In this document: positions 24,864 to 31,019 of the stretch, piece by piece
How the letters are laid out: every line of letters starts with the position of its first letter
Position numbering within the stretch: the first letter of the stretch is position 1
Assembly (NCBI GenBank): GCA_000169115.1
Contig: AAVV01000012.1
Location: forward strand, 62,001 to 126,000
Source of the DNA: a marine gamma proteobacterium HTCC2080
GTDB taxonomy: Bacteria; Pseudomonadota; Gammaproteobacteria; Pseudomonadales; Halieaceae
Direction of reading: 5' to 3'
DNA length: 64,000 nt
Notes under the pieces: model-generated
The model's database searches: none
The model's input: only the letters and a program-made list of their open reading frames with translations
What the model was told of the DNA's origin: nothing
Made by a program: the position numbers and the translations under genes

Positions 24864-27815
24864 ATGGAATCAATAGCTCAAAAAACAGCTCCCATTACTT
24901 TTCAGAAGCAACGCAGCGCAATGATCCCTGCCTTGAATGTTACGGTCGAGGAGTTCATCCACCCCGCTACTGGCGCTCAACATTTACACCTGCAGTGCGA
25001 TAACCCTGAAAATGTGTTTATGGTCGCTCTGCGTACCGTTCCCGAGGACTCTACCGGGGTCGCTCATATTCTCGAACATACGGTGCTTTGTGGCAGCGAG
25101 AACTACCCGGTCCGCGATCCATTTTTTATGATGTTACGGCGTTCGCTTAATACTTTTATGAACGCATTTACCAGCTCCGACTGGACCGCTTACCCCTTCG
25201 CCACACAAAATCGCAAGGACTTCAGTAACTTACTGTCGGTTTATCTAGACGCGGTATTTTTCTCCAGACTTGATCCCCTAGACTTCGCGCAGGAAGGACA
25301 TCGTGTCGAGTTCGAAAATCCGGCAGACTCTGAAGGAAACCTCGTTTTTAAAGGCGTGGTTTTTAATGAAATGAAAGGAGCAATGTCATCGGTCTCCGCC
25401 GTGCTGTGGGACAGACTGTGTTTCGAGCTTTTCCCCACCAACACCTACCATCACAACAGTGGTGGTGACCCCGCGAATATCCCTGACCTCAGCTACCAAC
25501 AACTCAGGGATTTTTACGCCCGACACTATCATCCGAGTAATGCGGTATTTCTCACCTTCGGTGACATTCCGGCCAGTGACCATCAAGCCGTTTTTGAATC
25601 CGCTGTTTTAAAACGTTTTGAAGCCTCAAAGACCCCAATATCAGTTGATCTTGAGCATGCTTTCACCGCACCCAAGCGCGCCACCCACCCCTATGCGGTT
25701 GAGGATGGCGAGGAATCAGGAAGAAAAACACACCATGTCATCGGATGGAAGTTGGGTGAGAGCTCCGACCTGCTTGCTATGCTCGAAGCCCAAGTTTTAG
25801 CCGCAGTACTCATGGAAAACAGTGCCTCGCCACTGATGCAATTCCTCGAAACCACACCCCTAGGAACAGCGCCGTCACCCCTGTGTGGTGTCGAAGAGTC
25901 CATGCGCGAAATGGTCTTTTGTTGCGGCATTGAAGGCAGCGATATTGATCAGTTGGATGAATTCGAACAAGCCACTCTCAGCGTCATTAAAACCATCGCT
26001 GAAACAGGTATACCCAAGGAAAGACTTGAGGCCATACTTCATCAAATTGAACTATCCCAGCGTGAATTGACCGGCGACGGTATGCCCTATGGCCTCAATC
26101 TTATGCTTCGCGCCTTGGGAGCTGCCGTGCATGGAGGCGACTCACTCGCCGCGCTCAACCTTGACCCCATACTTGAGATTATCCGAGAGCGCAGTCTCAA
26201 TGATGATTATGTACCTGGATTGATAGGCCGTTTACTACTGGATAACCCGCACCGGGTGACCTTAACCCTTGCACCTGACAGCGGGCTCACCGCTGGACGT
26301 GAAAAAGCAGAGCAGGGACGGCTGAACACAATGGCCGAATCGTTGGATGACGCTGGACGCAGTAAAATTTTGGACCTTGCCGAGAAGCTGAAAGCTCGTC
26401 AGGGTATTGAAGATGATCCAGACATTCTGCCAAAAGTCACACTGAGCGATATCCCAGATGGCATCTCAGAACCCAAACCGAGCGTAATAAACAAAGGAGG
26501 GGTCGATGTTTGGAACTACACCACCGGCACCAATGGGCTTGTATATCAGCAGTGGGTAAAACCGCTTCCCGATTTGTCTGAGCAAGACATGACAATCCTA
26601 CCTCTAGTCACTGGGCTTATTGGAGAGCTCGGCGCAGGATCCGCTGACTACTTAGAGATACAAGATCAGCAATCTGCCACCGTAGGATCGCTCAGCGTTG
26701 CAACGATGACCCGTAGTGCCAGAGGCGATGTGCAAGATTGCAGTGGCTGGCTGCTGACATCCTCTAAAGCCCTCGCCAATCGTTCAGAACGGCAAGTCGC
26801 GCTTATGCACGACACGTTTTTTCATACTCGATTTGACGAGGGTCCGCGCATACGCGAGCTCATTAATCAGACCCGAGCGCGGCGTGATCAATCGATTACC
26901 GGTAGCGGTCATAGCTTAGCGATGACTGCTGCGACCGCAGGCATGAGCCCTCTGGCTCTTCGGGCTCACGAACAAGGTGGGCTAGAAGGTATTCGCAGCT
27001 TGAGAGCGCTAGATGATCGACTCGCTAATGACAGCGATCTGCAAGAATTCATGGCTCAACTAACAGGAATACACCGCCAGATTGTGGACGCGCAGGGATT
27101 GCAAATAGCGGTCATTGCCGACGAGCAAAACTTAGCGGCGGCAGAAGGTTATGCGCTAGAGACCCTCAAAAAATCGACGCGGGGCGCAGCCGGGGCACTG
27201 TGGCACCCCGATGCAATTAGGGAGCATCGCCATGAAGCCTGGATCACAAATACTCAGGTGAATTTCTGTGCTAAAGCCTACCAAACCGTCCCTTCCAGCC
27301 ACGCAGACGCACCTGCTCTCACGGTTTTATCTGCCGTGCTGCGTAACGGCTATCTACACCGTGCGATCCGAGAACAAGGTGGCGCCTATGGCGGTGGCGC
27401 TAGCCACGATGGTAATGTCGGCGCGTTCCGATTCTTTTCTTACCGAGATCCGCGCCTCGGCGAAACTTTAGCTGACTTTGATGGGGCAATTGACTGGTTC
27501 TTAACAAACAACCATGAATTTGAAACTTTAGAGGAAGCCATCCTTGGTGTAATCGGCAGCCTTGATAAACCGGGATCACCAGCTGGGGAGGCACGCAGGC
27601 ATTTTCATGAGTCATTGTTTGCTCGAACCTCTGAACATCGCGAAGCTTTTCGTCGCGGCATTATCAACACCACGCTAGATGACCTGCGCCGAGTCACGGA
27701 AACCTACCTCGTCAACGCCGAGACCAGTACGGCGATAATTACCAATAACCAAACAGCTACTCGTGAGGCCGCCCTGCTTGCAGAGTTAGGCCTCGAACAG
27801 AGGGACTTAAATTAA
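24864..27815 (+). CDS. M16C metalloprotease, presequence-protease (PreP/Cym1) type
   Basis: Zinc peptidase of 983 residues, full length for the M16C family of mitochondrial and chloroplast PreP. The inverted zinc motif HILEH and the downstream glutamate in VVFNEMKGAMSS complete the active site in the N-terminal half. LRRSLNTFMNAFTSSDWTAYPF is the family signature. The second catalytically inactive half contains the substrate-binding RxxxY-like region around REQGGAYGGGASHDG. No signal peptide is seen, so it is probably cytoplasmic and degrades short unstructured peptides. It follows the cyclotransferase by 72 bases. Confidence 0.9.
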   Translation: MESIAQKTAPITFQKQRSAMIPALNVTVEEFIHPATGAQHLHLQCDNPENVFMVALRTVPEDSTGVAHILEHTVLCGSENYPVRDPFFMMLRRSLNTFMNAFTSSDWTAYPFATQNRKDFSNLLSVYLDAVFFSRLDPLDFAQEGHRVEFENPADSEGNLVFKGVVFNEMKGAMSSVSAVLWDRLCFELFPTNTYHHNSGGDPANIPDLSYQQLRDFYARHYHPSNAVFLTFGDIPASDHQAVFESAVLKRFEASKTPISVDLEHAFTAPKRATHPYAVEDGEESGRKTHHVIGWKLGESSDLLAMLEAQVLAAVLMENSASPLMQFLETTPLGTAPSPLCGVEESMREMVFCCGIEGSDIDQLDEFEQATLSVIKTIAETGIPKERLEAILHQIELSQRELTGDGMPYGLNLMLRALGAAVHGGDSLAALNLDPILEIIRERSLNDDYVPGLIGRLLLDNPHRVTLTLAPDSGLTAGREKAEQGRLNTMAESLDDAGRSKILDLAEKLKARQGIEDDPDILPKVTLSDIPDGISEPKPSVINKGGVDVWNYTTGTNGLVYQQWVKPLPDLSEQDMTILPLVTGLIGELGAGSADYLEIQDQQSATVGSLSVATMTRSARGDVQDCSGWLLTSSKALANRSERQVALMHDTFFHTRFDEGPRIRELINQTRARRDQSITGSGHSLAMTAATAGMSPLALRAHEQGGLEGIRSLRALDDRLANDSDLQEFMAQLTGIHRQIVDAQGLQIAVIADEQNLAAAEGYALETLKKSTRGAAGALWHPDAIREHRHEAWITNTQVNFCAKAYQTVPSSHADAPALTVLSAVLRNGYLHRAIREQGGAYGGGASHDGNVGAFRFFSYRDPRLGETLADFDGAIDWFLTNNHEFETLEEAILGVIGSLDKPGSPAGEARRHFHESLFARTSEHREAFRRGIINTTLDDLRRVTETYLVNAETSTAIITNNQTATREAALLAELGLEQRDLN

Positions 27816-27818
27816 GTC

Positions 27819-28421
27819 TTAGTTGGCGGCATCACGGAAGGTAGGTGCCCTGCCTTCCGTGACTAATGCAATACCTTGGCCTGAAGCATTAGCCCAGCGT
27901 GAGGCTAAAACATCCAGAGGGATTTCTATAATGCCTTGGGATGGGTCATAAATTGTCGCCATACCCAAAAGATCGATTGATTGTAAAACAACAAAGTGCC
28001 CCCAAACTTTTCCCGGTAGTCGCAGAATTGCCGATTGTTCTACTCGCTGGAGCCACAATCGTGACGTAAGCAATCCCCGAGATTGGAAACCAAAGTCTCT
28101 TAATATCCACTGCAGATCAGATAGCGAATAGCCTTCACCAATTGGCCTTCCTCCGGTAGCGGTGTAACGAAAGCTCAACAAATCTGCTATTCCCTCGAGC
28201 TCCGCATGAACCCCCTTTTCGGCGAGTACGAAGGCTACTGCTCGAAGTCCGCAATCGTTTGATAATCCAGCCACCGCTGGGGTATTCGAGGGCAGCAGCA
28301 TCAGGTCGTCTGGAGCATGCTGGCCGTGTGCCGTCATCGCCGTCAAGAAACCAAGCCCGGCAACCAACCGGGCGAAATTTGAAGGAGCTCGGGCTCTTTT
28401 ACACCGGCAATATCGAAACAC
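27819..28421 (-). CDS. Exported C39-family (double-glycine) cysteine peptidase
   Basis: Stand-alone peptidase of the C39 family, 200 residues from a GTG. A basic start and hydrophobic stretch (LVAGLGFLTAMTAHG) suggest Sec export, whereas most C39 domains sit in the cytoplasm on an ABC exporter. Active-site candidates are Cys57 in NDCGLRAVAFVL, His142 in GHFVVL and Asp159 in IYDPSQG. The glutamine usually six residues before the cysteine is not apparent (Ala51), so activity is not certain. It lies 27 bases downstream of a small exported protein with a GG processing-like motif, which is its probable substrate. No strong ribosome site is visible, so translation may be coupled. FapD is a known periplasmic C39 relative, but no fap genes are present. 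Confidence 0.8.
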   Translation of the reverse strand: MFRYCRCKRARAPSNFARLVAGLGFLTAMTAHGQHAPDDLMLLPSNTPAVAGLSNDCGLRAVAFVLAEKGVHAELEGIADLLSFRYTATGGRPIGEGYSLSDLQWILRDFGFQSRGLLTSRLWLQRVEQSAILRLPGKVWGHFVVLQSIDLLGMATIYDPSQGIIEIPLDVLASRWANASGQGIALVTEGRAPTFRDAAN

Positions 28422-28448
28422 GATTTATCGCAGCCACTGATGATCTGG

Positions 28449-28751
28449 TCACGGAGCCTCCGTATAAAAGTGTGGCCTCGACGGCGCATAATGAGGGACA
28501 TAGATACCCCAATAGAAGCTCATCAAAGCCAAATCCACACCAGCAATACCCAACGCCAGGGCCAAAGGTCCCAAGCCTCCTCGAGTGCTCTCCATAGCAA
28601 TCGGATCGAGCTCTTCAATCGGCATATCGTAGATAAAAGCTAAATTTCTGTCGCTAGGCGTAGCAACGTTAATGGCTGCATCGGTGGCTGCTGACGCAGT
28701 CGCACTAGCCAGCATGAGCAGTATCCCTAAAAATTCAAACGTAGTTTTCAT
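28449..28751 (-). CDS. Small exported precursor with double-glycine motif, putative C39 substrate
   Basis: Protein of 100 residues; I recognise no family. Residues 1-21 form a clear Sec signal peptide ending ASATASA. A leader-like segment (22-57) ends in ELDPIAMESTRGG, with GG at 58-59 and hydrophobic residues at -12 (Leu48) and -7 (Met53), as in double-glycine leaders. After GG comes a glycine- and leucine-rich hydrophobic stretch (LGPLALALGIAGVDLALM), then an aromatic, proline-rich tail. The ATG at 28751 lies eight bases after AGGGAG; the ATG at 28757 lies directly against it and is less likely. It is the first gene of a pair with the C39 peptidase. Confidence 0.72.
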   Translation of the reverse strand: MKTTFEFLGILLMLASATASAATDAAINVATPSDRNLAFIYDMPIEELDPIAMESTRGGLGPLALALGIAGVDLALMSFYWGIYVPHYAPSRPHFYTEAP

Positions 28752-28912
28752 AGACATCTCCCTGTCTCAATGGCGGGCCATCCTTGGCCCCTGTTTTGAT
28801 CGCGTCTTTTGTTCTTAAACAAATAACAGCGACGTAACTACCGTAAGGCTATGACGCGAGCAACAACAGTTCAGAGCGATCAAGAGATCAACTCTGGCCG
28901 GCACCACAGCAT

Positions 28913-29872
28913 TTAAGACGCTACTGATGACGACCTTTGAAGCACTTGCTTGAAGACGGCGCCATAACCTGAAAAACCTGGCGTGTTGTCAAAGTAGCCA
29001 CGGGCGTGCAACAACCGGCGAAGATCAGAGAGTCGGTGACACGGAACTGCCGCCATAAAATGGTGCTCTAAATGAAAATTGACGCCATGTGGCGCCACTA
29101 AAAATCGTTGCCAATAAGGCGCTTCTACCGTGCGCGTATTTTCTCTGGGATCAACGCTATAAAGATCCGGCACGGCTCCATGCTCTGCGATCTGGCGCAA
29201 TCGAATCACCAGCATATACGTTGTCATAAAAGTGACGAACCAAAGCAACCACGTCCACCCCCAACCTAGGGCGTAAAGGACTAAAAACAGAGCCAACTGC
29301 GCCAATACTTGCTTGAACAGAAGCAACCGTCCTTGGGCCTGAGCTCGGTTCATATTCCCTGCACCGCCCTTACAAAGGTTTATCAGTAACTTCACGCCTG
29401 TTTGCCCGGTTAAGTCCCGGAAAACTTTTCGGCTGAAACTCATTCTAGAGATAGGGTACGCCGCATAGTTAACTAAATCTGGGTCTTCAGCAGTGCCTGC
29501 TTTCCTGTGGTGCTCCAAGTGGCCCGCCGCGTAACTTGGTAGATCTCCAAGTGTGGGTAGCGCGCAAAACCATTGGCCTATTACGCGATTCAACGAGGAT
29601 TTTTCGAACAACGTGCCATGCCCTGCCTCATGCATGAGAACGGCCAGACCCAGCTGCCGCCCGGGCAACACCACTAAAACAAGAAGTGAGGTCAATACTC
29701 CAGGGTAATGCGCTGCCACGCCCAAGAGCAGGAAAATTAAACCCCAGTTTTTGACCACCAGCCCGAAGCCAACTAAATCACTAGAACGTGTCAGTGTCAG
29801 CCGCTCCTGAGCAGAGAGTATCTGACTAGACTTTATAGCCGTTACGGAGCTTTGTGAAACTTGGAACGACAT
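28913..29872 (-). CDS. Membrane fatty acid desaturase-family protein
   Basis: Integral membrane di-iron enzyme of 319 residues. Three histidine boxes are present: HEAGH (81-85), HLEHH (118-122) and HLEHH late in the protein (VNFHLEHHFMAAVPCH). Hydrophobic helices lie near 35-70 and 175-215. The family includes acyl-lipid desaturases, carotenoid ketolases and hydroxylases, so the substrate cannot be named; the HLEHH boxes fit lipid desaturases. It is 161 bases upstream of and co-directional with the GG precursor and C39 peptidase. Whether they share a transcript is open. Confidence 0.87.
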   Translation of the reverse strand: MSFQVSQSSVTAIKSSQILSAQERLTLTRSSDLVGFGLVVKNWGLIFLLLGVAAHYPGVLTSLLVLVVLPGRQLGLAVLMHEAGHGTLFEKSSLNRVIGQWFCALPTLGDLPSYAAGHLEHHRKAGTAEDPDLVNYAAYPISRMSFSRKVFRDLTGQTGVKLLINLCKGGAGNMNRAQAQGRLLLFKQVLAQLALFLVLYALGWGWTWLLWFVTFMTTYMLVIRLRQIAEHGAVPDLYSVDPRENTRTVEAPYWQRFLVAPHGVNFHLEHHFMAAVPCHRLSDLRRLLHARGYFDNTPGFSGYGAVFKQVLQRSSSVAS

Positions 29873-30332: not shown

Positions 30333-31019
30333 ATGCGCCAACCCGCCGTATCCTTTTGTTGCATAGCGATGCTGGGCTTACTCACAAGTTGTGCATCAAC
30401 CGAAGATCAGGCCGCCAAGGCGCTAGAGGACACTGGGCAGGTGCGTCCAAACTCGAACTATAAAGACGTAGCGCAGTACCCAGGGAACGTTACCTGCGGC
30501 AAGTATCTCGCTACGGACTACCAAGGCTTTCCTATCTACAAAGATTTTGTCGTATTAGATACCGTCGCCAATCTCAGGCCTTTGTCGATGGACGTGAAAA
30601 TTTACTGCAGTGAGGATCCTGCCGCGGCGCTAAACACAGAACTTGGGATTGATTATGAGATCCAAAAGTCGCAGATAGATCGCATTCTTAACGATTTCCG
30701 AGACCTCGCTGTGCCATTAGAAGCATACATCAGCGACAACCCCTCCTACCCATGGACCGAGCAAGGTCTGCAAGCGCTGGTTCAACCTGCGACAACGGGC
30801 AACCCACCGAGAGATTTCCCCGAAAACGGCTATATTAGCTCGATACCCACGGACCCCTGGAACAGGAACTATCATTACATCTGCGAGCCTTTTGCCGGTA
30901 TCCAAATCCCTTACAAATTGCAAACCTTTGGAGCTGATGGGGTACAAGGCGGGTCACAAGAGAACGCCGATATTAAGCACGATTACCTGCCCTACTTCGA
31001 CCACATAAACAAAATTTAA
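30333..31019 (+). CDS. Lipoprotein with C-terminal GspG-like (type II secretion pseudopilin) domain
   Basis: A 228-residue predicted lipoprotein: the signal peptide ends LLTSC, with lipidated Cys20. Residues about 112-217 match the globular domain of the major pseudopilin GspG: SYPWTEQGLQALVQ (138-151), IPTDPWNRNYHY (171-182), TFGADGVQGG (198-207) and NADI (211-214). The N-terminal methylated pilin helix and prepilin peptidase site of true pseudopilins are absent. Residues 21-110, including two cysteines (Cys55, Cys92), are unassigned. No secretion-system genes are nearby. It would be anchored in a membrane facing the periplasm or surface; the function is unknown. Confidence 0.8.
   Translation: MRQPAVSFCCIAMLGLLTSCASTEDQAAKALEDTGQVRPNSNYKDVAQYPGNVTCGKYLATDYQGFPIYKDFVVLDTVANLRPLSMDVKIYCSEDPAAALNTELGIDYEIQKSQIDRILNDFRDLAVPLEAYISDNPSYPWTEQGLQALVQPATTGNPPRDFPENGYISSIPTDPWNRNYHYICEPFAGIQIPYKLQTFGADGVQGGSQENADIKHDYLPYFDHINKI

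Follow-up and report, generated by a model that had tools for sequence, protein, structure and literature searches.

Leaders cut by C39 peptidases have hydrophobic residues at positions -12, -7 and -4 and glycine at -2 (PMC10885120, PMC6363468), with GG, GA or GS ahead of the cut (PMC10885120). In Pseudomonas, the FapD peptidase works in the periplasm and depends on its cysteine (PMC5557850). Rouse et al. (2017) described the FapD target as unclear, pointed to GG and GA motifs of both FapE and FapF as possible sites, and reported FapE as the one Fap protein with complete N-terminal processing, peptides being missing over roughly its first 70 residues (PMC5557850). In 2018 the target was yet to be determined, and homologues of fapD and fapF were reported to co-occur in five further phyla (PMC6173800). 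A legend published in 2023 gives FapC as the protein modified by FapD (PMC10638192), and according to a review of December 2025, FapD is thought to process the N-terminus of FapE and part of FapF (PMC12822426). The accessible parts of two other papers (PMC12392863, PMC11784438) say nothing of a FapD cleavage site.

The window analysed here is a stretch of 64,000 nucleotides from the marine gammaproteobacterium HTCC2080 (Halieaceae; contig AAVV01000012.1, positions 62,001 to 126,000). It contains a pair of genes on the minus strand, a small precursor and, 27 nt downstream of it, a C39 peptidase; both open reading frames (ORFs) were confirmed. The precursor gene (28449..28751) encodes 100 residues and has relatives across the family. 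A Shine-Dalgarno-like GGGAG (28758..28762, read from the sequence) lies 6 nt ahead of the ATG at 28751, and an alternative in-frame ATG at 28757 would give 102 residues. Residues 1–21 (28689..28751) form a predicted Sec signal peptide ending ATASA, whose boundary was placed by eye. The putative leader occupies residues 22–59 (28575..28688) and ends LDPIAMESTRGG, in which Gly58 is invariant in the family rows. The remainder, residues 60–100 (28452..28574), is hydrophobic and is the predicted product, as indicated by conserved residues and by a helix in the structural model. The peptidase (27819..28421) has 200 residues, a GTG start and an N-terminus that looks, by eye, like an export signal, and it passes Pfam PF03412 with 35.6 bits (cut-off 22). 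Alignment of the C39 rows places the catalytic residues Cys57 at 28251..28253, His142 at 27996..27998 and Asp159 at 27945..27947, and this triad is kept in every row that reaches those positions. The initial annotation had described a Sec-type precursor separated by 27 nt from an exported-looking C39 protein with these three residues, and the description holds throughout, export being a judgement by eye.

Upstream of the pair, on the same strand, is a gene for a fatty-acid desaturase (28913–29872), and downstream is a convergent gene for a peptidase of M16C/PreP type (24864–27815). Also near the pair, on the plus strand (30333–31019), is a gene for a lipoprotein-like protein of 228 residues with a T2SS protein G domain (PF08334, 75.6 bits). 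A promoter scan of the locus gave no sigma-70-like site, and three terminator-like sites were seen in the same scan, compared to 1.3 ± 1.3 in shuffles. The genome has one other C39 match, in a 719-residue frame on a different contig; this is a length usual for ABC exporters.

The pair is ordinary as a C39 system, and unusual as an exported pair of substrate and protease that has no pore. It shares with the C39 domains of PCAT/AMS ABC exporters the peptidase domain and triad, together with hydrophobic residues at -12 and -7 and Gly at -2 of the leader. It differs in having no fused or adjacent ABC transporter, in the Sec-type signal ahead of the leader, and in the -1 residue, which varies among relatives of the window precursor. 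The likeness to FapD (NF058616), with its partners FapE and FapF, consists of a C39 peptidase with an apparent export signal and of a FapE leader that has the same shape. However, the window C39 scores 14.9 bits against the FapD model, and those of Haliea and Parahaliea 63.7, where the curated cut-off is 330. In addition, no FapF or FapE match was found in the window's genome or beside the pair, the window product is small and hydrophobic, and the oxyanion Gln is absent from the window C39. FilB, the C39 peptidase of a putative pilus system (the Fil system of Acinetobacter, NF050078), is matched by Haliea and Parahaliea with 57 and 63 bits, but these are far below its cut-off of 475, and the window C39 gives no match to it at E values up to 1.

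Profile searches found the precursor in 63 of 140 Halieaceae genomes, representing 10 of 28 genera, and in 42 of the 57 genomes of Luminiphilus, the genus to which the window belongs, with one copy in each. Among the 17 Luminiphilus genomes with completeness of 90% or more and contamination of 5% or less, it is found in 16. A single-sequence search found the C39 protein in 32 of the 57 Luminiphilus genomes. Pairing was counted for 61 intact precursors of the 63, the window included (G427 was not taken in, and G013 is degenerate). It had been proposed as a check that homologues of the precursor should always sit beside this type of C39, and this is what was found: in 59 of the 61 loci the precursor is closely followed, in the same orientation, by C39, and the two without it (G049 and G439) stop at contig ends. 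In G050, where no precursor can be seen, the C39 gene begins 18 nt from the end of a contig. In G013 (locus L096) a degenerate precursor is accompanied by a broken C39, as if the two were decaying together.

Against the nearest relative, G032, both genes are under purifying selection, with dN/dS of 0.08 for the precursor and 0.24 for the peptidase. Because the pairing recurs through the family and both genes are under purifying selection, it goes beyond chance. The possibility of chance ORFs was considered, and is ruled out by the family-wide conservation together with dN/dS. The pair is real and inherited, and probably functional.

The window leader, LDPIAMESTRGG, has Leu at -12, Met at -7, Thr at -4 and Gly at both -2 and -1; in many relatives position -4 is Ile, Leu or Val. 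Leader rows could be aligned for 54 of the 61 precursors; the anchor pattern did not fit the other seven, which were skipped (G446, G437, G436, G435, G505, G428 and G425). These include the two most divergent precursors, G425 and G428, in which the motif was not placed. The first Gly of the motif is kept in all 54 rows. The residue that follows it is variable, namely R (18), G (13), E (7), Q (7), K (6) or A (3), so that Gly or Ala is present at -1 in 16 of the 54. Residues R, K, E and Q at this position fall outside the GG/GA/GS rule. In a set of 23 diverse precursor rows the invariant residues are M1, G58, P62, G68, D73, G82, Y84 and P86, and the second Gly is not among them. GG is found in the window and throughout its clade (8/8 genomes), and the 13 GG rows consist of this clade plus G041, G005, G046, G053 and G045. 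The C39 tree unites these 13 genomes in a single supported branch (100/99), and GG is therefore a property of one part of the tree. The initial annotation took the double glycine to be the signal. As a general recognition unit GG is ruled out, being present in only 13 of 54 leader rows, yet the first Gly and the shape of the leader are kept in 54 of 54. As judged from the alignment, what is conserved is a leader carrying one Gly, and not GG.

Searches of Pfam and NCBIfam with the precursor gave no named family that passed. Its GG leader and glycine-rich hydrophobic core resemble class IIb bacteriocins of the cerein 7B type (TIGR03949), but the window precursor scores 12.5 bits where the cut-off is 21.5. 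A match to this family at E values up to 1 was obtained for 7 of 23 precursor members. The product might on this basis be a membrane-active bacteriocin or microcin, and the core and the weak cerein match are consistent with this. However, the precursor is conserved, with one copy in 16 of the 17 good genomes of the genus; its core contains invariant residues; and no immunity gene is recognized beside the window's pair. The small membrane protein found in relatives (see below) could in principle be an immunity protein. A bacteriocin is nevertheless very unlikely.

PF03412 has a Gln six residues before the catalytic Cys, and the window C39 has Ala there. In the window's clade this residue is A, G, V, I or T, none of the eight genomes having Gln. 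The warning given earlier about a missing oxyanion Gln was thus justified, and it is limited to this clade of eight genomes: Gln is present in 52 of 52 other Halieaceae rows and 48 of 48 rows from the class that reach the position. In the C39 tree the clade forms one branch (100/98), next to Luminiphilus sequences that have the Gln, and a single loss is the simplest reading of tree and alignment. The tree is rooted at its midpoint, so that directions of loss can only be inferred.

This distribution of Gln would fit a C39 protein that, in the window's clade, is a chaperone which binds leaders and does not cut them, like the dead C39-like domains of ABC exporters; the leader would then be a docking signal that is not removed. 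The absence of the barrel and small membrane-protein partners (see below) points the same way. However, Cys, His and Asp are kept in 8/8 genomes of the clade, as is GG, and the dN/dS of 0.24 for the closest pair of C39 genes also argues against it. In a co-crystal of LahT147 the equivalent Gln lies 4.3 Å away from the oxyanion oxygen, and the catalytic His has been put forward as another candidate (PMC6363468). At this distance Gln is not clearly the oxyanion residue, and losing it need not abolish activity. A chaperone is thus improbable, and we favour an active peptidase that removes the leader. An AlphaFold model of the joined pair is confident for the C39 domain (mostly pLDDT above 90) and for the product helix (pLDDT 84–89). 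The leader has pLDDT 54–64 and the overall pTM is 0.53; the model does not show docking, because the placement of the leader lacks confidence.

Haliea, Parahaliea and other sister genera have a fuller operon, in the order outer-membrane barrel, precursor, small membrane protein and C39. The small membrane protein has two hydrophobic stretches, as seen by eye. Of the 20 loci analysed from outside Luminiphilus, every one has the barrel, and 16 have a small membrane protein that is recognized by profile. In contrast, a profile search found the barrel in only one of 57 Luminiphilus genomes, G056. Neither a single-sequence search, of which a negative outcome says little, nor this same profile, which did find the G056 barrel, gave a barrel in the window's genome. 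The small membrane protein is present in 31 of 41 intact Luminiphilus loci; the ten in which it was not found are the window's eight-genome clade, G053 and G045.

Comparison of the barrel profile with FapF-type proteins gave a probability of 98.9% and an E value of 2.7e-17, over columns 156–465 of 471, the N-terminal part lying outside. The FapF set had nine members and was anchored by NCBIfam matches of 437 and 152 bits for two of them. On the basis of this profile comparison, the sister-genus barrel is homologous to the barrel part of FapF. The earlier remark that no exporter is seen is correct for the window, but not for the sister genera, which carry this FapF-like barrel in the operon. 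The precursor tail has a CxxC motif in 16 of 21 loci that have the barrel, compared to 0 of 40 loci that lack it (L233–L250), and CxxxC is found in three more barrel-bearing loci, G439, G428 and G425. In G433 and G056 the barrel is present and the cysteine pair is absent.

Leaders were also sought beside other exported C39 genes of the class. The FapD model matched 76 of 369 sampled class genomes, none of them above its cut-off. Short frames accounted for 60 matches, of which 50, in 49 loci, were analysed; the ten left out were the first hits of G068, G221, G330, G214 and G419, two hits of G319, and the second hits of G289, G268 and G121. Twenty 20-kb stretches served as controls; Luminiphilus G002 supplied one of them, and genomes of the class sample the other nineteen. 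A strict pattern combined the published leader rule with E, D or Q at position -8, Thr and Ser being allowed at -4, and it matched 21 of 153 exported-like ORFs near C39 genes, compared to 4 of 208 in the controls (p 1.3e-5). Counted by locus, it was found in 15 of 49, against 4 of 80 single-strand 10-kb control segments. A looser leader pattern was partly shaped by the class loci, and the leader profile was made from Halieaceae rows only. With this profile, scores of 8 or more were reached by 29 of the 198 exported-like ORFs that lie near C39 genes in short frames and by 5 of 362 in the controls (p 8.6e-10), corresponding to 24 of the 49 C39 loci. Single control ORFs reach a score of 14.0, and one leader match therefore proves little, but the excess is meaningful. 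No leader with a score of at least 6 was found in 23 of the 49 loci, which is in part a result of crude gene and signal calling.

Several of these loci can be described individually. L147, L151 and L156 were counted as empty, yet a leader motif is visible in them by eye. One genome, G102, has seven short-frame C39 matches (L177–L182). Several of them adjoin an exported-looking, leader-bearing protein that starts MKKLT and are followed by a barrel gene, which gives the impression of a multiplied module. Four small exported-looking proteins lie in tandem beside the C39 gene of G192 (L173:2600–4400), and their leaders end in Thr-Ala-Gly (TAG), a GG-like variant. On the minus strand of L175 and L172, leader-bearing proteins with glycine-rich, bacteriocin-like remainders lie beside C39 and barrel genes. 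Near the C39 genes of L135, L136, L137, L140 and L145 there is a further small exported-looking protein, in which a leader-like segment precedes VILWDE; that of L136 has no Pfam or NCBIfam family match.

The NCBIfam FapE model located 16 places in 15 of the 369 genomes, none above its cut-off of 250 bits. All 16 have, after the signal region, a leader of similar shape that ends RG[RK][FY] (13 found by pattern and three by reading; examples are LSDDEMGDMRGRY and IPDPELNLMRGRY), a motif that was noticed by eye before it was counted, with a search pattern that demanded RG[RK]. The motif Gly is at about residue 45–71 of the frames, and its fit to the missing FapE peptides is accordingly loose. The R or K of the motif is also a trypsin site. 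Some FapE proteins have GG six residues after the conserved Gly (TVGGN), which is not kept in all of them. No report of a shared single-Gly leader was found in the literature searched, as far as its accessible text goes, most of it outside subscription journals.

By analogy with FapE and FapC, the product could be a subunit or nucleator of a surface fibre, given that FapE has a leader of the same shape and the sister genera a FapF-like barrel. However, the product is short, inspection by eye shows no repeats in it, the model gives it a single hydrophobic helix, and no barrel-profile match is found in the window's genome. A fibre component is therefore unlikely. It is decidedly more plausible, if still somewhat short of an even chance, that the product acts in signalling, or as a small peptide with a regulatory or structural function in the inner membrane: the hydrophobic stretch is strongly conserved and has an invariant Asp, and the pair is kept where the barrel is absent. 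There is no identified receptor or partner, and the two-Cys tail of most barrel-bearing relatives would instead suggest an extracytoplasmic end.

Whatever the role of the product, the explanation that we prefer, and regard as likely, is that a GG-like leader with a free -1 position is removed in the periplasm by a stripped-down relative of the FapD systems; cleavage and compartment are both inferred here from sequence comparison. The small protein would be exported by Sec, with loss of its signal peptide, and the segment that follows would act as a helical leader of double-glycine type, with hydrophobic residues at -12 and -7 and Gly at -2. The exported C39 peptidase would bind this leader in the periplasm, its groove taking the -12 and -7 residues, and would cut next to the conserved Gly, either directly after it or one residue later. 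The variable residue would be easier to reconcile with Gly at P1 and an unconstrained P1' than with Arg at P1. What the cut sets free in the envelope would be a hydrophobic peptide about 41 residues long. The initial annotation also had the precursor exported first and then trimmed outside the cytoplasm, which agrees with the exported-looking pair, the FapD likeness and the constant pairing, but not with the double glycine as it was written. The pair would then be a reduced, vertically inherited derivative of FapD-type systems: the barrel was apparently lost in Luminiphilus, and in the window's clade the gene for the small membrane protein as well.

A broader proposal, about which we are evenly balanced, is that exported C39 peptidases form a general Gram-negative pathway for removing leaders in the periplasm. 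Its substrates would carry in series, at the N-terminus, a Sec signal and a leader helix of GG type that depends on its first Gly alone; FapE would be such a substrate, cut at RG[RK]; and the cargo would be amyloid-associated, of glycine-zipper type or, in Halieaceae, a conserved hydrophobic peptide. Luminiphilus would have lost the pore and kept the pair for a new cell-associated role. The leader shape common to the Halieaceae pair and to all 16 FapE proteins offers one candidate Gly for the FapD cleavage question. If the proposal is true, double-glycine processing would take place in the periplasm as well as in the cytoplasm and would leave the -1 position free, and the two-gene pair would be a model small enough for biochemistry.
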